From: Pseudoflavonifractor phocaeensis | Lineage (GTDB): Bacteria > Bacillota > Clostridia > Oscillospirales > Oscillospiraceae | DNA: 64,000 nucleotides | Reading direction: 5' to 3' | Assembly: GCF_021531815.1 (NCBI RefSeq) | Contig: NZ_JADYUM010000009.1 | Location: 1-64,000 of the forward strand | Shown here: piece after piece, positions 36,285-62,757 of the stretch | How the letters are laid out: the number at the start of each line of letters is the position of its first letter | How positions within the stretch are numbered: position 1 is the first letter of the stretch | The notes under the pieces: model-generated | Told to the model about the DNA's origin: nothing | Database searches by the model: none | What the model saw: the letters and a program-made list of their open reading frames with translations, nothing else | Translations under genes and position numbers: made by a program

Positions 36285-36556
36285 ACAAAAACGGCCTCGT
36301 CCTATCTGAAATAAGATAGGACGAAGCCGTATACTCCGTGGTACCACCTAAATTCACGGCGGACTGCCGCCGCCGCGCGCTCGTTGCCCCTGTAACGGAG
36401 GGGGGACCGTTCCAACCTACTTGGGCCGCGCCGGTTCAATCGGACTGCTCGCGGGTGATGTTCGGAAGTGCTCCTTCACGGGAGCTTGCACCGACCGCTC
36501 CCTCTCTGTGCATCCAGGCATGCCTACTAGCCCGCTCATCGCTTTTGTGATGATTG
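36285..36556 (-). promoter_or_regulatory. T-box leader, probably isoleucine-specific
   Basis: Minus-strand leader. The distal loop GGTGCAAGCTCCC suits a T-box stem I. The specifier loop reads GAAC-ATC-A before the closing CCCGC, giving ATC (Ile) at 36459-36457. The T-box bulge sequence TTAGGTGGTACCACGG lies near 36352-36337. The terminator is an 18-base stem (36291-36330 region) followed by GTTTTTGTTTT. Uncharged tRNA-Ile would allow read-through into ilvB-ilvH. Confidence 0.9.
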
Positions 36557-51448: not shown

Positions 51449-51464
51449 GCAGGAAAATTGAACC

Positions 51465-51577
51465 AGGATCTTCAGGGCGGGGTGAAATTCCCCACCGGTG
51501 GTAAAGCCCACGAGCCGCAAGGCATGATTCGGTGAAATTCCGAGGCCGACAGTACAGTCTGGATGAAAGAAGATCGT
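51465..51577 (+). promoter_or_regulatory. FMN riboswitch (RFN element)
   Basis: Classic RFN sequence: opening GGATCTTCAGGGCGGGGTG, the CCCACCGGTGGTAA and AGCCCACGAGCCGC segments, CCGACAGTACAGTCTGGATG near the end, and closing helix GATCTTC (51467-51473) with GAAGATC (51569-51575). Binds FMN and reduces transcription of the rib genes. Confidence 0.97.
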
Positions 51578-51620
51578 GTGCCGCGGGGGATATTGCAGTC
51601 TCCGCGCCCATGGATTTGCT

Positions 51621-55236: not shown

Positions 55237-55265
55237 TTGACAAAGCAAAAAACTGATTTTATAAT
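55237..55265 (+). promoter_or_regulatory. Promoter of the second T-box operon
   Basis: TTGACA (55237-55242), 17-base spacer, TATAAT (55260-55265). Confidence 0.9.
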
Positions 55266-55271
55266 TCAGCC

Positions 55272-55538
55272 ATCTAAACTGATGACGCAGGAAAAAGTCA
55301 GGTCAGTCCCGTCGCAGCGAGGGGAGGGCGGTGGAAGCTCCCCACAGGACTCTGAGGAATATGGTCTGCGGAGGGCGGCTCTAAATGGGCCGACGTTGGG
55401 ACGGACGTTACCCGTCGGGGATATGTTGGTATCCCGCTGGAGGGCCCTGTCATGGGGCTGAATCAAGGTGGCACCGCGAAATTGTCTTAGTTTCGCCCTT
55501 GACCGAAGTGAAATTCGGTCAAGGGCGTTTTTTATTTT
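55272..55538 (+). promoter_or_regulatory. T-box leader, probably tryptophan-specific
   Basis: Stem I base CGCAG (55286-55290) with CTGCG (55366-55370); distal loop GGCGGTGGAAGCTCCCC. The specifier loop reads GGAATATGGT, which gives TGG (Trp, 55362-55364) one base from the closing helix, as in the Ile T-box of this window; ATG is the alternative frame. T-box AATCAAGGTGGCACCGCG at 55461-55478. Terminator with perfect 13-bp stem (55495-55507, 55514-55526) and T run. The downstream TrpXYZ-like importer supports Trp. Confidence 0.88.
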
Positions 55539-55558
55539 CCAAACGGGAGGATACCGAT

Positions 55559-56479
55559 ATGGAGCAGGGAAAAGTTGTGATCATCGGCGCGGGCCATGTG
55601 GGCAGCCACTGTGCTTACGCCCTGGCCGCCTCCGGTGTGTGCGGAGAGATCGTGCTGGTGGACAAGGCGGCGGAGAAGGCCTCCGCTCAGGCCCTGGACG
55701 TGGCCGACAGCGTCAGCTTCATGGACCGGAACGTCACGGTCCGGTCCGGAGGATACGGAGAATGTAAAGACGCCGGCCTGACCGTGGTGGCCATCGGGGA
55801 GCCCCGCCTCCCCGGCCAGACCCGGCTGGACCTGCTGGACCGGTCGGTGGAGCTGCTGAAGGGCCTGGCCGCGGAGCTGAAGCCCCTGAAGCTCGCCTGT
55901 CCGGTGGTGACCATCACCAATCCCGCCGACATCGTGGCCGACTACCTGCGCAAGAGCCTGGAGCTGGAGCGATGGCGGTGCTTCGGGACCGGGACTCTCC
56001 TGGACACCGCCCGCCTGGTCCGGGTCATCGGTCAGGAGACAGGGGCAGACCGGCGGAGTGTGTGCGCCTTCTCCATGGGAGAGCACGGCGACTCCTCCAT
56101 GGTCCCCTTCTCCGCCATCACCGTGGGAGGCGTCCCCTTCGAAAAGCTGGGCCTGGACAAGGAGAAGGTCCTGGAACAGACCCGCCGGGCGGGGATGGAC
56201 ATTATCGAAGGCAAGGGCTCCACGGAGTTCGGCATCGGCCGGGCCCTGGCTGAGCTGGCCGGGTGCATCCTCCGGGACGAGAAGCGGGTCCTCCCCGTCT
56301 CCGTTCTGCTGGATGGGGAATACGGCCAGCGGGGCGTCCACTGCGGCGTGCCCTGCCGCATCGGGAAAAGCGGCATTGAGAAGATCATTCAACTGGACCT
56401 GAGCGGGGAGGAACAGCGGATGCTGGACGCCTCCTGTCAGGTCATCCGAACCCACATTGAGCGGGCGGCGGCACTGTGA
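55559..56479 (+). CDS. L-lactate/malate dehydrogenase-fold 2-hydroxyacid dehydrogenase
   Basis: 306-aa NAD-dependent enzyme of the LDH/MDH family. GAGHVG (10-15) binds NAD; catalytic set Arg89, Asn121, Asp149, Arg152 and His176 (MGEHGDSS). At the substrate-specificity position, where LDHs have Gln and MDHs Arg, it has Arg83 (GEPRLPGQTR). The ATG at 55559 is 8 bases after GGGAGG. It sits between a T-box and a TrpXYZ-like importer, so it may reduce an aromatic 2-keto acid such as indolepyruvate rather than pyruvate (inference). Arg83 leaves malate or another diacid open. Confidence 0.85.
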   Translation: MEQGKVVIIGAGHVGSHCAYALAASGVCGEIVLVDKAAEKASAQALDVADSVSFMDRNVTVRSGGYGECKDAGLTVVAIGEPRLPGQTRLDLLDRSVELLKGLAAELKPLKLACPVVTITNPADIVADYLRKSLELERWRCFGTGTLLDTARLVRVIGQETGADRRSVCAFSMGEHGDSSMVPFSAITVGGVPFEKLGLDKEKVLEQTRRAGMDIIEGKGSTEFGIGRALAELAGCILRDEKRVLPVSVLLDGEYGQRGVHCGVPCRIGKSGIEKIIQLDLSGEEQRMLDASCQVIRTHIERAAAL

Positions 56480-56516
56480 CCGCCCATGATTTGATGATAA
56501 AAAGGAGTAATATAAA

Positions 56517-57554
56517 ATGAAAAAATTGATTTCTGTTATGGCTTCCGCCCTGGTTATCGCCGGCATCCTGGCCGGCTGCGGCTCCTCCAGCAGCAATTCC
56601 GCCCCCTCCGGGGCGGCTTCCTCCGGTTCCGCCGCCTCCGCTCAGGAGACCTACAAGGTTGCCATTGTCCAACCCATGAGCCACACCTCCCTGGACCAGA
56701 TCCGGGACACCATCGTCTCCAAGCTGGAGGCTTCGGGCAAGAGCATCGAGATCACCACCGAGAACGCCAACGGCGACTCCACCGCCCTGTCCACCATCCT
56801 GAGCAACTGCAAGGCTGAGGGAGTGGACCTGGTGGTCCCCATCGCCACCTCCACCGCCCAGTCTGCCAAGACCGTCTTTGACGGGGACAGCACCCCCATC
56901 GTCTTCGCCGCCGTCTCCGACCCCACCGCTGCCGGCCTCACCGGGGATGACTGCCAGTACATCACCGGCGTGTCCAACAACATCCCCGCCGCCGAGATCG
57001 TCAAGCTGATTTTCAACTTCCAGCCCGACTGCCAGAAGATCGGCTTCCTCTACACCTCCAGCGAGGCCAATTCCGTCTCCACCATCAACGCCGCCAAGAC
57101 CTACTGTGACCAGGAGGGCATCGCCTACGAGGAGGTCTCCATCGCCAACCTGTCCGAGCTCCAGACCGCCGCCGAGACCCTGATTTCCCGGGGCGTGGAC
57201 GCCCTGTATACCGGCAACGACAACTCCATCGCCTCCGCCATGGCCACCTACACCGACGTGGCCTACGCCGACGGCATCCCCGTCTACTGCGGCGCCGACT
57301 CCATGGTGGCGGACGGCGGCTTCGCCACCATCGGCGTCAACTATGTCCAGCTGGGCGAGCAGGTGGCCGACCTGGTGCTGAAGGTGATGGACGGCGCTGC
57401 CCCCGCCGACCTGCCCTATGAGACCCTCAGCGACTACGCCAAGTTCGTCAACCTCCAGGCCGCCGGCCGCTTCGGCGCCGACTTCCCCGACAGCGCCTAC
57501 GAGGGCTATGAGGTCCTGGTGGAGGAAGACGGCACCAGCCACTTCGGCGCCTGA
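56517..57554 (+). CDS. ABC importer substrate-binding lipoprotein, TrpX-like
   Basis: 345-aa binding protein of the ABC_sub_bind (TrpX/YufN-like) family. Signal with lipobox VIAGILAGCGSS (Cys about 21), Ser/Ala-rich linker to about 43, then YKVAIVQPMSHTSLDQIRDT, TPIVFAAVSDPTAAGL and ALYTGNDNSIASAMATY, typical of the family. Members next to Trp-specific T-boxes in other Firmicutes have been predicted to carry tryptophan. In the T-box transcript, 37 bases after the dehydrogenase; followed by a hairpin and then permease and ATPase genes. Confidence 0.9.
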   Translation: MKKLISVMASALVIAGILAGCGSSSSNSAPSGAASSGSAASAQETYKVAIVQPMSHTSLDQIRDTIVSKLEASGKSIEITTENANGDSTALSTILSNCKAEGVDLVVPIATSTAQSAKTVFDGDSTPIVFAAVSDPTAAGLTGDDCQYITGVSNNIPAAEIVKLIFNFQPDCQKIGFLYTSSEANSVSTINAAKTYCDQEGIAYEEVSIANLSELQTAAETLISRGVDALYTGNDNSIASAMATYTDVAYADGIPVYCGADSMVADGGFATIGVNYVQLGEQVADLVLKVMDGAAPADLPYETLSDYAKFVNLQAAGRFGADFPDSAYEGYEVLVEEDGTSHFGA

Positions 57555-57578
57555 GCAGGATACATTATAAATATAGAG

Positions 57579-57603
57579 GTCCGGCGGGAAATTCCCGCCG
57601 GAC
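57579..57603 (+). promoter_or_regulatory. Stem-loop between binding protein and permease
   Basis: Perfect 11-bp stem GTCCGGCGGGA / TCCCGCCGGAC with a 3-base loop, then a short T run (57611-57615) about 8 bases on. A partial terminator or mRNA-stabilising hairpin. Confidence 0.72.
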
Positions 57604-57630
57604 CCACCGCTTTTTATCAAGGAGGCGCCC

Positions 57631-58587
57631 ATGGTCTATTTGAGTATGCTCATCTCCGCCCTGAGCCAGGGAATGCTGTACGCCCCCATGGCCCTGGGGG
57701 TGTTCGTCACCTTCCGTATTTTGAAGACGCCGGACCTGACGGTGGACGGCAGCTTCGTCTTCGGCATGACGGTGTGCGCCGCCGTCACCATCTCTGGACA
57801 CCCGGTGCTGGCGCTGCTGGCCGGGACGGCGGCGGGAGCCCTGGCCGGCTTCTTCACCGCCCTGCTCCAGACCAAGCTGCGCATCGAGCCCATCCTGTCC
57901 GGCATCCTGGTGGCGGCGGGACTGTACACCGTGAACTACGCCGTGCTGGGCGGCCAGTCCAACCTGTACCTCCAGTACGACACGGTAAATTCCGCCGGGG
58001 CGGCGGTGAAGGCCGCCAGCCCCACCATCTATAAGAACTTTTCTGCCCTCTTTGCCGGGGCGGAGGGAGTGCTTGCCGACAGCAACGCCCAGGTCCTGCT
58101 CCTGACCCTGGCTATTGTGGCGGCACTCACCGCCGGTTTGGGCGTCTTCTTCTTCACCCGGCCCGGCATGGCCATCCGGGCCACCGGAGACAACGAGGAG
58201 ATGGTCCGGTCCTCCTCCATCAACGCCGACCTGACCCGCACCGCCGGGGTCATGCTGGCCAACGCCCTGGTGGCCCTGTCCGGCGCCTTGCTGTGCCAGC
58301 AGCAGCGCTACGCCGACCTGAACTGCGGCAGCAGCATGCTGGTCATGGGGCTGGCCTCGGTCATCATCGGCCAGGTCCTCTTTGGGGACCGGGGTATGGT
58401 GGGCGGACTGGTGTCCGCTGAGGGAGGCTCCCTCCTCTACCGGATCATTATTCAGGCGGCCTATCAGGTGGATATGCCCAGTTACGCCGTCAAGCTGCTG
58501 TCCACCCTCATCGTGGTGGCGGCCCTGGCGGTCCCCCTGGTCCGGCGGAAGCTGGCCCGGAGCCAGAAAGGAGGGAAGACGCAATGA
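57631..58587 (+). CDS. ABC importer permease, TrpY-like
   Basis: 318-aa membrane protein with about nine hydrophobic helices, of the branched-chain/ribose-type permease superfamily that accompanies TrpX-like binding proteins. Conserved stretch FRILKTPDLTVDGSFVFGMT. RBS AAGGAGG before ATG 57631. Stop overlaps the ATPase start by 4 bases (ATGA). Confidence 0.9.
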   Translation: MVYLSMLISALSQGMLYAPMALGVFVTFRILKTPDLTVDGSFVFGMTVCAAVTISGHPVLALLAGTAAGALAGFFTALLQTKLRIEPILSGILVAAGLYTVNYAVLGGQSNLYLQYDTVNSAGAAVKAASPTIYKNFSALFAGAEGVLADSNAQVLLLTLAIVAALTAGLGVFFFTRPGMAIRATGDNEEMVRSSSINADLTRTAGVMLANALVALSGALLCQQQRYADLNCGSSMLVMGLASVIIGQVLFGDRGMVGGLVSAEGGSLLYRIIIQAAYQVDMPSYAVKLLSTLIVVAALAVPLVRRKLARSQKGGKTQ

Positions 58588-59369
58588 GCGGAAGCACCTT
58601 GTCTGTGCGGGGGCTGACCAAGCGGTTTGAGGCGGGCACCGTAAATGAGAAGCTGGCCCTGGACCACCTGGACCTGGAGGTCCCCGCCGGCCAGTTTGTC
58701 ACGGTTCTGGGCTCCAACGGCTCGGGCAAATCCACCCTGTTCAACACCATCTTGGGCCGCCTCAGCCCCGACAGCGGCAGCATCCTTCTGGGGGAGGAGG
58801 ACATTACCCGCCAGAAAGACTACCAGCGGGCCCTGAATATGAGCTGCCTGTACCAGAACCCCCTCCGGGGCACCGCACCCACCATGACCCTGGAGGAGAA
58901 CCTGGCGCTGGCCTATACCCGGAAGGCCTCCAAGAGCTTTTTTGCCGTCAACCGGCGGGACAACGCCTATTTCCGGGATCTGCTGGCCACCCTGAATATG
59001 GGCCTGGAGGACCGGATGAAGACCAAGATGGGCCTGCTGTCCGGCGGGCAGCGCCAGGCGGCATCCCTCCTCATGGCCACCGTGGCCCAGCCCAAGCTCC
59101 TGCTGCTGGACGAACACACCGCCGCCCTGGACCCCGGCGCGGCGGAGAAGGTGATGGAGGTCACCGAGGAGATCGTGACCCGGGACAAGATCACCACCCT
59201 GATGATCACCCACGACATGGACTATGCCCTCAGCGTGGGCAGCCGAACCATTATGCTGGACGCGGGCCGGGTGGTGCTGGACCTGTCCGGCGGGGAACGG
59301 GAGAAGATGACCGCCGGGGCGCTGGCCGAACTATTCTACGCCAGAAGCCGCAGAAAAAGAAACGGATGA
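58584..59369 (+). CDS. ABC importer ATPase, TrpZ-like
   Basis: 261-aa ATPase. Walker A GSNGSGKST, signature LSGGQRQAA, Walker B LLLLDEHTAALDP (catalytic Glu present, followed by His where Pro is usual, as in this subfamily), switch His in LMITHDMDYAL. Completes the binding protein-permease-ATPase importer under T-box control; a terminator follows at 59401. Confidence 0.92.
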   Translation: MSGSTLSVRGLTKRFEAGTVNEKLALDHLDLEVPAGQFVTVLGSNGSGKSTLFNTILGRLSPDSGSILLGEEDITRQKDYQRALNMSCLYQNPLRGTAPTMTLEENLALAYTRKASKSFFAVNRRDNAYFRDLLATLNMGLEDRMKTKMGLLSGGQRQAASLLMATVAQPKLLLLDEHTAALDPGAAEKVMEVTEEIVTRDKITTLMITHDMDYALSVGSRTIMLDAGRVVLDLSGGEREKMTAGALAELFYARSRRKRNG

Positions 59370-59400
59370 CCCCGGAACATCTTCGGCATATGATATAAGG

Positions 59401-59430
59401 AAGGACGGCGGAAACGCCGTCCTTTTGTTT
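59401..59430 (+). terminator. Terminator of the T-box importer operon
   Basis: Perfect 10-bp stem AAGGACGGCG / CGCCGTCCTT (59401-59410, 59415-59424) followed by TTGTTT. Confidence 0.8.
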
Positions 59431-59555: not shown

Positions 59556-60209
59556 ATGCCGACCAGTACTTTTTTTCGATTGCCTGGGGAAAAACGGGAA
59601 CGGCTGATGGATGCGGCCTGGGAGGAATTTACCAGCAGCAGCTATAGCGACGCTTCCATTAACCGGATCATCCATAAGGCCCATATCCCCAGAGGCAGCT
59701 TCTACCAATATTTTCAGGATAAGGAAGACCTGTTTTGGTACCTGCTTGGCGGGATGCGGGAGTATTTTTCCGGGGTGTTCCGGGAGCTGTTGCAGGATGC
59801 GAAGGGAGACCTGTTCTCCGTTCCGGTCCGGGCTTTTGACCGGTTTGTAAGCCGGAGAGGAGATCCGGACCCCATTTTGACCCAGTGCATCCAGGTGATG
59901 CGGCTGAACCAGGGACTGGATTTTCAGCGTTTCTACGCCGCAGAGCCCGGGACGCTGCCTGAAGAATTTATGGCCTGCATCGATCTGGACCATTACCGCA
60001 GGAAAACCCCGGATTTTATCAGCCACGTCTTTTTCCTGACGGTCCCGCCGCTGGCGTTTGCCATCATGGAGACCCTGCGGGACCCGGACCAGTGGGAGCG
60101 CCAACGGAAGTTTTTGCAGGAGCGGATCGAGGTCGTGCGGACCGGTAGCCTGACGTCCCGGGGAAACGCGGCCTATGAGCATCAGCATCAAGGAGGAGAG
60201 CAATGTTGA
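59556..60209 (+). CDS. TetR family regulator of RND efflux operon
   Basis: 217-aa repressor-type protein; HTH at about 10-58 with SINRIIHKAHIPRGSFYQYF, ligand domain after. ATG 59556 is 5 bases after GGAGGG; earlier in-frame codons lie inside the operator. It overlaps the next gene by 7 bases, so regulator, TolC-like protein, adaptor and pump form one transcript repressed through the palindrome at 59509-59541 (inference). Inducer unknown. Confidence 0.92.
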   Translation: MPTSTFFRLPGEKRERLMDAAWEEFTSSSYSDASINRIIHKAHIPRGSFYQYFQDKEDLFWYLLGGMREYFSGVFRELLQDAKGDLFSVPVRAFDRFVSRRGDPDPILTQCIQVMRLNQGLDFQRFYAAEPGTLPEEFMACIDLDHYRRKTPDFISHVFFLTVPPLAFAIMETLRDPDQWERQRKFLQERIEVVRTGSLTSRGNAAYEHQHQGGEQC

Positions 60210-61558
60210 ATCGCAAGATCATCGCCGCCCTTTTGGCGGCGGCCATCACCCTGTGTGGAGTGTCCGTGTTCGCGGCGGACCCGGTACAGGGGGAGGCATC
60301 CGAACAGCCGGAGGCTGCCGCCGCGGTTCCGGTGGAAGCGCCGGAGGAAGAACCGGCTGCCGCCCCGGCGGAAGATACATACGCCCCGGAGACCACGGCG
60401 GAAGCGCCCCAGGAGGCCGCCGCAGCGGAGCAGGAGGCCCCGGCGGAGGTCACGCCCGATCCGGTAGGCAGCGTGTCCTTTGCCAATCTGGGCAGCCGGG
60501 TGCGGGAAAACAACTTCAATATGCTGGCTCTGACAGAGACCATCGCTTCCATTCAGGCGGTGGACTACGACAAGATGAAGGATGATTTGAAGGACAGCTT
60601 GAAGCTTCTGGCCAATACGTCCTATTACCTGAGCGTCACGGGAAATTCCTTCGCGGCCAACTCCGTGCAGCAGCAGTACGACTCCCTCAAGAATACCTGG
60701 GATGACCTGAAGGACGGCAAGATCCAGGAGGACTACGACGCGGCGGTCCGCCAGCTGGAAAATGCCCAGGACCAGATCGTCATGGCCGCTGAATCCCTGT
60801 ACATCGCCCTGGTGGAGCTGGAGCAGAACGACCGGTCCCTGGACCGCCAGCTCAACGCCCTGGACCGTACCATCCAGGAGCTGGAGCTGCGCTATGACCT
60901 GGGACAGATCTCCACCCTGACCCTCCAGCAGGCCAAGGCGGGCCGCACCTCCCTGGTCAGCGGCCGGCAGACCCTGAACATGAACCTCTCCAATTATAAG
61001 ACCCAGCTGGAGCTGATGATCGGCGCGGAACTCAGCGGGAAGATTAAACTCCAGGCTCTGCCTCAGGTCAGCGCCCAGGAACTGGCCGCCATGAATCTGG
61101 AAAAGGACCTGGCTGCCGCCAAGGCGAACAGCTACGACCTGTTTGCCGCCAAGCGCACCCTGGATGACGCCAAGGAGACCTACAGCGACACGGGCAAGGA
61201 GTATGGCTACAACGAGAACCTGTACCAGTATGCCTCCGCCAAACACACCTGGGAGGCGGCCCAATACACCTACAGCGCCTCCATTCAGAACTTTGAAAAC
61301 AGTTTCCGCGTCCTGTACAACCAGGTGAAGGATTACCAGCAGGTGCTGGCCGCCGCCAAGACCGCCCTGGAAGTGGAGAAAAGCAACTATGCGGTGGACC
61401 AGCTGAAGTATGAGCAGGGCACCATCTCCAAGAACGATCTGCTCACCGCAGAGGACGACCTGAACACCGCTCAGGACAAGGTGACCGGCGCCGCCATCGA
61501 CCTCTTTGCCGCTTATCACAACTACCGTTGGGCCGTGGACCGCGGTATCCTGAACTAA
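60203..61558 (+). CDS. TolC-like outer/export factor protein
   Basis: 451 aa. Signal peptide 1-24 (AAAITLCGVSVFAAD), a low-complexity Ala/Glu/Pro segment about 25-88, then two homologous long-helix halves as in TolC/OMF proteins. Each has the typical turn: ELRYDLGQISTLTLQQAKAG and KYEQGTISKNDLLTAEDDLN. RBS AAGGAGG ends 5-6 bases before the ATG. Overlaps the tetR stop. A Gram-positive-type host has no outer membrane, so here it may bridge the thick wall or work as an envelope adaptor; if the host has an outer membrane the assignment would be ordinary. Confidence 0.85.
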   Translation: MLNRKIIAALLAAAITLCGVSVFAADPVQGEASEQPEAAAAVPVEAPEEEPAAAPAEDTYAPETTAEAPQEAAAAEQEAPAEVTPDPVGSVSFANLGSRVRENNFNMLALTETIASIQAVDYDKMKDDLKDSLKLLANTSYYLSVTGNSFAANSVQQQYDSLKNTWDDLKDGKIQEDYDAAVRQLENAQDQIVMAAESLYIALVELEQNDRSLDRQLNALDRTIQELELRYDLGQISTLTLQQAKAGRTSLVSGRQTLNMNLSNYKTQLELMIGAELSGKIKLQALPQVSAQELAAMNLEKDLAAAKANSYDLFAAKRTLDDAKETYSDTGKEYGYNENLYQYASAKHTWEAAQYTYSASIQNFENSFRVLYNQVKDYQQVLAAAKTALEVEKSNYAVDQLKYEQGTISKNDLLTAEDDLNTAQDKVTGAAIDLFAAYHNYRWAVDRGILN

Positions 61559-61578
61559 AAATGGAGGATCTACCTATT

Positions 61579-62757
61579 ATGCAGAAACGTGTTTTATCTC
61601 TCGCCCTGGCGGCGGTCCTGGTGCTGTCCCTCACTGCCTGCGGTTCCAAGAACACGGACGGTTCCAGTTCCGGCAGTCAGGAGGCTTCCGTCGGCGTGGC
61701 TGTCCAGGCGGCTGAAGTGACCCTGAACGACATCTCCACGGAGAACAAGGTATCCGGCAAAGTGGTGGCCGACAGCGAGCACACCATCATGGTGGGCGTC
61801 AGCGCCAAGTGCACCGCCGTCTATGTGGAGGCGGGCGACCTGGTCCAGGCCGGGGAGAAGATCTGCACCCTGGATCTGGCCAGCACCCTGGCCAGCTACA
61901 ACGCCGCCAATATCACCTACGCCTCCGCGGTCCAGAGCTATCAGGACCAGACGGCCATTTTTGACGAGCAGATCCGGCTGGCCCAGAATAATGTGGACAA
62001 CCTGAAGGCTCTGTTTGAGATCGGCGCCGCCTCCCAGCTGGAGATCGACCAGGCGCAGCTGTCCCTCCAGCAGGCCATCGCGGGACGCGCCTCCACCCTG
62101 GCCCAGCTGGAGGCCGGGATGCAGAGCTATAAGTCCAACGTGGAGCAGCTGACCACCGTCCTCCAGGATGTGGACGCCGCGGGCAACGTCATCGCCCCGG
62201 CCAGCGGCACCCTGGTCTCCCTCAGCGCGGTGGAGAACGGCTATGTCTCCCCCTCCATGCCCGTGGCCGTCATTGACGGCGCCGAGCAGATGAAGGTCCA
62301 GGTCTCCGTGTCCGAGGCCCTGGTGCCTAAGCTGTCCATCGGGGACCAGGTGGACGTGGCCGTGAGCGCGGCGGGCCAGAACTTCACCGGCATCATCCGC
62401 TCCGTGGAGCAGGCGGCCAACGTCCAGACCAAGCTGTACACCGTCACCATTACCGTGCCCGCGGACACCAGCGGCCTGCTGTCCGGTATGTTCGCCGACG
62501 TGACCTTCCATACCGATACCTCCGCCAATACCGTGGTGGTCCCCACCGAGGCCATCCTCACCAACGGCAATGTCCAGTATGTCTTTGTGGTGGAGAACGG
62601 CGACACCGCCCGGTATGTGGAAGTGACCACCGGCCTGACCGGCAACGGCGTTACGGAGGTCACCTCCGGGCTGGCCGCCGGTGAGCAGCTGGTCACTGTG
62701 GGCCAGAGCTACCTGAGCGACGGCGACGCTGTGCGTGTGGTCTCCGGGGAGGATTAA
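61579..62757 (+). CDS. RND efflux membrane-fusion protein (lipoprotein)
   Basis: 392-aa periplasmic-adaptor/HlyD-type protein. Lipobox VLVLSLTACGS (Cys about 19). First half of the lipoyl domain at about 55-95 (VSGKVVADSEHTIMVGVSAK), coiled-coil hairpin about 95-190, second lipoyl half with IAPASGTLVSLSAVENGYVS. Then beta-barrel and membrane-proximal domains ending GEQLVTVGQSYLSDGDAV. ATG 61579 after GGAGG at 11 bases. Links the RND pump to the TolC-like protein. Confidence 0.93.
   Translation: MQKRVLSLALAAVLVLSLTACGSKNTDGSSSGSQEASVGVAVQAAEVTLNDISTENKVSGKVVADSEHTIMVGVSAKCTAVYVEAGDLVQAGEKICTLDLASTLASYNAANITYASAVQSYQDQTAIFDEQIRLAQNNVDNLKALFEIGAASQLEIDQAQLSLQQAIAGRASTLAQLEAGMQSYKSNVEQLTTVLQDVDAAGNVIAPASGTLVSLSAVENGYVSPSMPVAVIDGAEQMKVQVSVSEALVPKLSIGDQVDVAVSAAGQNFTGIIRSVEQAANVQTKLYTVTITVPADTSGLLSGMFADVTFHTDTSANTVVVPTEAILTNGNVQYVFVVENGDTARYVEVTTGLTGNGVTEVTSGLAAGEQLVTVGQSYLSDGDAVRVVSGED

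Follow-up and report, generated by a model that had tools for sequence, protein, structure and literature searches.

Why would a bacterium place a dehydrogenase of the lactate type and an importer of the amino acid type under one tryptophan-responsive leader RNA? The question is raised by a four-gene operon of Pseudoflavonifractor phocaeensis at positions 55237-59430 of the stretch of DNA analysed here, referred to below as the window (64,000 nucleotides; contig NZ_JADYUM010000009.1 of assembly GCF_021531815.1, positions 1 to 64,000, forward strand). The operon, with its promoter and T-box leader, is real, and the coordinates given for it in a preliminary description of the window were correct. 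That description proposed that the operon couples tryptophan (Trp) supply to the reduction of a keto acid. The present analysis supports it in part and favours the reverse chemistry, a salvage, with a probability of roughly 0.48: the importer would take up an amino-less analogue, likeliest indolelactate, and the enzyme would oxidise it to indolepyruvate, from which transamination would yield Trp.

The leader RNA reads tryptophan tRNA

The leader matches the T-box covariance model RF00230 at 67.1 bits (E = 1.4e-14), under the Rfam gathering score of 93. This is no sign of a chance match, because orthologous leaders in six other genomes of the genus that carry the gene score 59-78 bits, six of six under the gathering score, and of the 17 T-box matches found across this genome, 11 also fall short of it. 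The z-score of the leader fold is -3.22. Two candidate specifiers, AUG (55361-55363) and UGG (55362-55364), share two bases, and the window by itself cannot decide between them. The preliminary description had looked to a covariance model to fix the specifier; the model recognised the T-box, and the specifier was fixed by comparison of leaders.

This comparison drew on 64 named loci encoding relatives of the enzyme, the one at L098 (P. phocaeensis) being 91% identical to it. At least 28 of these loci have a T-box ahead of the operon: a pattern search located 25 no more than 700 bases from the dehydrogenase gene, the covariance model added two (L109 and L123), and one (L153) stands ahead of an operon that begins with the binding-protein gene. 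With the leader in the window they make a set of 29, and 28 of these have a complete Stem I; L122 ends before the specifier and was used for the antiterminator count only. UGG is present in all 28 readable leaders, including L109, which reads CUGG and has no AUG. The antiterminator is UGGC in 29 of 29. All three tRNA-Trp genes of this genome carry G73 and all three tRNA-Met genes carry A73; the leader reads tRNA-Trp because UGGC pairs with G73 and not with A73. Two other leaders of the genome, L006 (Trp) and L011 (Asn), have UGGU facing G73 tRNAs, so that U appears permissive and C informative.

An AUG (Met) specifier was initially preferred, since the base after UGG covaries with the opposite strand in the genus (A-U, G-C and G-U); this pairing would move the register to AUG, an arrangement also seen in the Val and Leu leaders of this genome. 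It was ruled out by L109, by A73 of tRNA-Met and by the pairing of that base, which is non-standard in 10 of the 28 leaders (five were judged by eye, L099-L102 as standard and L153 as non-standard). The base that separates UGG from the basal helix is T in 16 leaders, A in 8, C in 3 and G in 1. The comparison of leaders thus settles the specifier as UGG, in agreement with the TGG read in the preliminary description, and disposes of the ATG that it had named as the danger to its interpretation.

The other leaders of the genome, read by eye, specify Ile, Val, Gly, Leu, Phe, Asn, Thr, Cys, Ala, Tyr and Asp, mostly with fitting downstream genes. Of these genes, profile matches confirmed leuA, tyrS, iorAB and a non-discriminating aspartyl/asparaginyl-tRNA ligase.

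Dehydrogenase and importer genes are often adjacent

Of the 64 loci, 36 have a TrpX-type match spanning 250 aligned residues or more next to the gene of the lactate dehydrogenase (LDH) relative; one of the 36 (L102) is a gapped remnant. With X as the binding-protein gene, five arrangements occur: LDH-X-permease-ATPase; X-permease-ATPase-LDH (L141 and L153, with L142 starting within the permease); X-LDH-permease-ATPase (L138); X-LDH (L139); and a convergent order (L128, L130, L131, L132, L134 and L161). The hosts of the pair include Oscillospiraceae, Lachnospiraceae, Syntrophomonas, Alkalibacter, four Spirochaetota loci and one Anaerolineaceae genome. A pattern search found no T-box at the Spirochaetota loci (L116, L121, L127 and L129). 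The Anaerolineaceae locus (L153, Chloroflexota) is doubtful, its LDH being 38% identical, interrupted by an in-frame stop at residue 272 of 321 and devoid of the GQTR loop; it retains GHVGSHCA and TEFGI. When neighbouring frames were clustered (clusters of at least four loci), no real family other than LDH and the importer parts occurred in more than four loci, the remaining clusters being antisense as judged by eye.

The repeated rearrangement of a pair that nonetheless stays adjacent is strong evidence that LDH and importer work together. A chorismate mutase gene at L114 and a trpE gene under a Trp T-box at L155 are further aromatic neighbours, which are counted in favour of salvage.

The binding site has lost its acidic residue

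By its protein families the importer is TrpXYZ-like, as the preliminary description held. Its binding protein scores 239.8 bits against the TrpX profile NF041285, below the cut-off of 390, and none of 60 relatives has a match above that cut-off. According to the available passages of PMC9382623, the ligand residues of Streptococcus suis TrpX are T108, A127, T129, D152, N233 and Q273, with D152 the sole acidic one. Mapped by residue spacing through an alignment with 3lft, the position of D152 is occupied by Asn154 in the operon's protein. Of 37 LDH-adjacent binding proteins, 36 have Asn; only one of the two tandem proteins of L153 departs from this, its partner having Asn. Among the relatives, 30 of 50 TrpX-type matches were read: Asn occurs in the three that have LDH no more than 1.5 kb away, and Asp in 27 of the 27 others. 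Asp is also found in the second importer of this genome that is preceded by a Trp T-box and in three solved binders of aromatic amino acids.

Position 154 tends to change together with position 234. Among 89 proteins the two read Asn-Asn in 41, Asp-Thr in 44 and Asp-Ile in 4, with no mixture; later reads broke this pair rule (L239, Asp-Asn; L248, Asp-Gln). Nor was it upheld that Asn is strictly tied to the enzyme, and the claim is restricted to the LDH-adjacent importer group. Within that group, loss of the site's only acid fits a ligand that carries no charged amino group. The importer is probably not a plain Trp importer, because its binding protein lacks the acid that would be expected to grip the amino group; in this respect the preliminary description, which had it carry Trp, is not followed.

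A lactate-type enzyme with a malate-type arginine

The first gene had been assigned to the 2-hydroxyacid dehydrogenases of the LDH and malate dehydrogenase (MDH) fold, and its families (PF00056 and PF02866), predicted structure and catalytic residues bear this out. The AlphaFold2 model has a mean predicted confidence (pLDDT) of 94.6. The 50 Foldseek matches listed are all lactate dehydrogenases, counting three 2e37 chains that are titled merely TT0471 protein and are named L-lactate dehydrogenase elsewhere. The best NCBIfam match is L-LDH (TIGR01771, 288.8 bits, cut-off 303.55), and MDH (NF004863) gives 247.8 bits against a cut-off of 283. By profile, the enzyme is nearer LDH than MDH and falls under the cut-offs of both.

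Residues were counted, and an LDH tree was built, on 62 enzymes (L153 and the partial L158 and L160 being excluded), of which 26 are T-box-linked with a whole frame. The catalytic-type residues Arg89, Asn121, Arg152 and His176 are each kept in 62 of 62. Arg83 stands where the ordinary LDH of this genome has Gln, in 52 of the 62 enzymes and in 25 of the 26 that are T-box-linked. It aligns with that Gln without gaps or loop insertion, so that the Gln by which an L-lactate dehydrogenase is recognised at position 102 is replaced; the earlier argument from this residue against plain lactate is upheld. Arg83 presumably corresponds to position 102 of LDH numbering, in agreement with passages of PMC9299796.

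Three further positions differ from the ordinary LDH of this genome: Gly212 (62 of 62; Ala in the ordinary LDH), Met213 (41 of 62 and 25 of 26 T-box-linked; Tyr) and Glu223 (61 of 62; Tyr). Gly212 is taken here to be position 237 of LDH numbering, where engineered glycines admit bulkier substrates; a Gly at this position is also common in MDHs. The changes at Gly212 and Met213 may be read as an enlarged pocket and are counted for an aromatic substrate. Thr222, presumably an LDH-type residue, is retained, and Glu223 may offset Arg83.

Arg at position 102 is the specificity residue of MDHs in the available passages of PMC9299796. The enzyme could therefore be a malate dehydrogenase, or an enzyme of another 2-hydroxy diacid whose second acid group is gripped by Arg83, and the importer would then bring in a related acid without an amino group, which might be a Trp precursor not yet recognised. 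This reading is rather unlikely. The lack of a loop insertion at Arg83, the frequency of Gly at the Gly212 position in MDHs and the chorismate mutase gene directly behind LDH in L114 speak for it. Against it, an operon that has a Trp T-box and an importer of the TrpX family would have no obvious use for plain malate. The profile scores and the listed fold matches also point towards LDH, as does Thr222, and Glu223, present in all but one of the enzymes, may offset Arg83.

Tryptophan need and the direction of the reaction

The genome (2.67 Mb, 98.84% complete) was searched with profiles for the enzymes of Trp synthesis, and neither TrpC nor TrpA has a match in it at E <= 0.001. The organism is therefore probably unable to make Trp from chorismate and relies on imported Trp, perhaps also on indole. 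Its UGG-reading leaders number three. Besides the present operon, they precede a second TrpX-permease-ATPase operon without a dehydrogenase (L006) and a TrpB-like gene of the TrpB2 kind (L008; NF009057, 667 bits, cut-off 366).

This regulation bears directly on the reductive chemistry of the preliminary description, in which the importer carries Trp and the enzyme forms indolelactate by reduction of indolepyruvate (or acts on a different aryl-pyruvate), following the example of the aromatic LDH in bifidobacteria. The precedent is real, since a Bifidobacterium LDH performs this reaction according to the available part of PMC8556157. The pocket residue Gly212 would also suit it, and the five matches of this genome to the 2-hydroxyacyl-CoA dehydratase family make a reductive route possible, in which their products could process aryl-lactates onward. 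It is nonetheless distinctly improbable. A T-box is induced by uncharged tRNA-Trp, that is, when Trp is scarce, and the proposed coupling is unsupported because the leader would then induce a Trp-consuming reductase just when cells are starved of Trp, and this genome has neither TrpA nor TrpC matches. The exchange of Asp for Asn in the binding protein, the presence of a second TrpX importer under a Trp T-box and the lack of an aminotransferase in the unit, unlike the bifidobacterial aldh element, also stand against it.

For salvage, the oxidative direction is suggested by this same regulation together with the need for Trp. By analogy with experimentally tested T-boxes, a shortage of Trp would let uncharged tRNA-Trp engage the UGG and UGGC of the leader, and transcription would continue. 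The importer would bring in a compound with the shape of an aromatic amino acid minus its alpha-amino group, likeliest L-indolelactate from neighbouring gut bacteria. The dehydrogenase would oxidise it to indolepyruvate with nicotinamide adenine dinucleotide (NAD+), and an aminotransferase encoded elsewhere would convert indolepyruvate to Trp. A gene of the aminotransferase family behind tyrS, under a Tyr-reading T-box, is a candidate only. More tentatively, the operon may belong to a dedicated uptake-and-oxidation route to Trp, starting from indolelactate or a similar aromatic acid that lacks the amino group, with a binding protein re-tuned from an amino acid to a hydroxy acid; the route would stand under a Trp T-box in many Bacillota and under no detected T-box in Spirochaetota, and it may also exist in Chloroflexota.

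Evidence that weighs against salvage

A number of observations, collected here, weigh against this salvage. The first concern the enzyme and its chemistry. Oxidation of hydroxy acids with NAD+ is energetically uphill. Arg83 is the chief unexplained feature of the sequence and, of all the observations, speaks most strongly against a substrate that is purely aromatic. Two enzymes of the LDH/MDH superfamily that act on aromatic 2-oxo acids, the L-phenyllactate dehydrogenase FrsC and TcAHADH, have Ser102 with a loop insertion and Ala102, respectively, in the passages available from PMC9299796, whereas the enzyme here has Arg and no insertion. Clustering of neighbouring frames placed no aminotransferase in the conserved unit or in the operon.

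A second group concerns the binding protein. That Asp152 holds the amino group is deduced from its charge, and S. pyogenes TrpX likewise has Asn at this position (PMC9382623, in the part available). Tyr276 occupies the place of the indole-contacting Gln of pneumococcal TrpX; there Gln holds the indole, and a Tyr is reported to hinder Trp. The second Trp-T-box importer of this genome also has Tyr at this position. On a tree of the binding proteins, which warns of long branches meeting, the Asn and Asp states need three changes, and most of the 41-versus-48 pattern would therefore reflect shared descent. In 20 genomes that have LDH without a complete adjacent importer, 24 of 34 matches were read, giving 18 Asp and 6 Asn; the six are L204 (a contig-broken operon of the genome of L103), L206 (the L102 remnant), L215, L216, L218 and L221 (of a second group). 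A separate Asn-Asn group appeared in 98 relatives of one second-group genome, where 30 of 44 matches were read and 9 have Asn. Three of these nine are in genomes with the clade LDH (G128, G161 and G221) and six in genomes without it, G229 being counted among the latter on account of an LDH that is 34% identical.

The link to Trp auxotrophy is also less specific than it may seem. TrpC has no match in 24 of the 29 genomes with a T-box-linked LDH, for most of which completeness is not given; TrpC is above cut-off in 12 of 60 relatives and not in 48. Enrichment of Trp auxotrophy among LDH carriers is not shown, TrpC being scarce in the relatives too, and auxotrophy is a permissive background.

Finally, the enzyme can persist without this importer. 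In G003 (L099; L091, G003:C11) and in L102, TrpX and permease genes are in pieces with the LDH frame and T-box intact, and L091 and L102 represent importer decay in progress. L104 (G015) has kept enzyme and T-box, has no importer and has TrpC; in G029 the permease is split across two frames. The decayed or absent importers of L099, L102 and L104 also fit another view, in which the dehydrogenase acts on an internal metabolite, the importer is an ordinary one for Trp or aromatic amino acids, and the two share regulation alone; so do the other ABC (ATP-binding cassette) importers near LDH in L143, L145, L147 and L159. This view is improbable, as shared regulation does not account for adjacency in five arrangements, some of them without co-transcription (the convergent loci), nor for the Asn state of the adjacent importer's binding protein.

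Relation to known systems and significance

The closest known relative of the operon is the T-box-controlled trpXYZ Trp importer of S. suis (PMC9382623), which shares with it UGG, UGGC, a TrpX-family binding protein, a permease and an ATPase. It differs in having Asp152 in place of Asn154 and Gln273 in place of Tyr276, and no dehydrogenase is mentioned in that source. The C. difficile (Clostridioides difficile) protein CD0873, which binds tyrosine (PDB 6hni), has the same family and pocket layout as the binding protein here. It has Asp and Thr where the LDH-adjacent proteins have Asn154 and Asn234, and its Glu263, which contacts the tyrosine hydroxyl, is replaced by Ala260.

On the side of the enzyme, the type 4 aromatic LDH of Bifidobacterium (PMC8556157, in the part available) is of the LDH family and acts on aryl 2-oxo acids, the class of substrate proposed here; the two are likened by description. 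Unlike the operon here, the bifidobacterial gene neighbours an aminotransferase and a HAD gene and yields indolelactate. Canonical L-LDH and LDH-like MDH share with the enzyme its fold and Arg89, Asn121, Arg152 and His176. The enzyme departs from them in combining an MDH-like Arg83 with an LDH-like Thr222, plus Gly212 and Glu223.

A literature search by title and opening of the abstract, with subscription papers outside its reach, found no description of a T-box operon that pairs such an importer with a 2-hydroxyacid dehydrogenase, or of indolelactate salvage. The RNA and protein folds are known; what appears new is their combination and the re-tuned binding site. Indolelactate is a bifidobacterial product in the infant gut (PMC8556157, in the part available). 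If salvage holds, indolelactate would be a cross-fed source of Trp between gut bacteria and not an end product alone, indolelactate producers would be linked to Trp auxotrophs, and a route of consumption would affect indolelactate levels.

Operon layout, neighbouring genes and minor observations

Table 1. Elements of the tryptophan T-box operon and their positions in the window
Feature	Position	Strand	Evidence
Sigma-70-like promoter, TTGACA-17-TATAAT (consensus)	55237..55265	+	read by eye
T-box leader RNA, Stem I to antiterminator	55273..55503	+	Rfam RF00230; orthologous leaders in the genus
Basal Stem I helix, 5' strand CGCAG (partner 55366-55370)	55286..55290	+	
Specifier UGG (Trp)	55362..55364	+	28/28 readable leaders
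Basal Stem I helix, 3' strand CUGCG	55366..55370	+	
Antiterminator UGGC, complementary to the GCCA end (G73) of tRNA-Trp	55469..55472	+	29/29 leaders
Intrinsic terminator hairpin and U-run	55495..55533	+	by eye; hairpin present in the computed fold
LDH-fold NAD-dependent 2-hydroxyacid dehydrogenase, 306 aa, ATG at 55559	55559..56479	+	PF00056 + PF02866
Arg83 codon (presumably position 102, LDH numbering)	55805..55807	+	alignments
TrpX-type substrate-binding lipoprotein with Asn154 and Asn234	56517..57554	+	PF04392, 1.3e-57; alignment with 3lft/6hni/3lkv
Asn154 codon, counterpart of ligand-binding Asp152 in S. suis TrpX	56976..56978	+	
Asn234 codon, changes along with Asn154	57216..57218	+	
ABC permease	57631..58587	+	PF02653
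ABC ATPase	58584..59369	+	PF00005
Terminator-like inverted repeat with T-run at the operon end	59401..59428	+	by eye

Directly upstream of the operon, an FMN riboswitch (51464-51578, +) precedes riboflavin-synthesis-like genes, named by eye. Just downstream, at 59556-62757, a TetR-family regulator (PF00440) is followed by outer-membrane-factor-like and membrane-fusion-like frames (by eye), which form an efflux-type cluster. Further away in the window, a T-box at 36314-36548 (-) with an AUC (Ile) specifier stands ahead of acetolactate-synthase-like genes, again named by eye.

Several loci outside the window have LDH neighbours of their own. In Clostridium vitabionis (L114:1747-2343), a chorismate mutase gene (CM_2, PF01817) overlaps the LDH stop codon, and no importer gene lies alongside. 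At L155:3805-4053 (-), a Trp T-box (AAAUGG-A, UGGC) leads trpE, which diverges from the LDH gene; frames resembling trpD, trpC and an asparaginase gene, named by eye, lie in the vicinity. The different ABC importer near LDH in Papillibacter (L147) has an NMT1-type binding protein, and binding-protein-dependent ABC genes lie near LDH in Claveliimonas and relatives (L143, L145 and L159).

Elsewhere in this genome, extra tRNA clusters at L053 (G000:C22:169252-169641) and L057 (G000:C40:105876-106366) encode Cys, Trp, Gln, Glu and other tRNAs. They duplicate isoacceptors present elsewhere in the genome and are possibly cargo of mobile elements. A T-box reading AUC (Ile) at L007 (G000:C44:77315-77581) precedes a CstA-like transporter gene with no obvious fit, which scores 233.8 bits, well below the CstA cut-off. 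Another T-box (L009/L082, G000:C42:10313-10567), read by eye as UUC (Phe), stands ahead of a YerC/YecD TrpR-related gene and iorAB, the indolepyruvate ferredoxin oxidoreductase, both subunits of which are above their NCBIfam cut-offs. A Phe-reading T-box before iorAB suggests reductive carboxylation of arylacetates for the supply of Phe.

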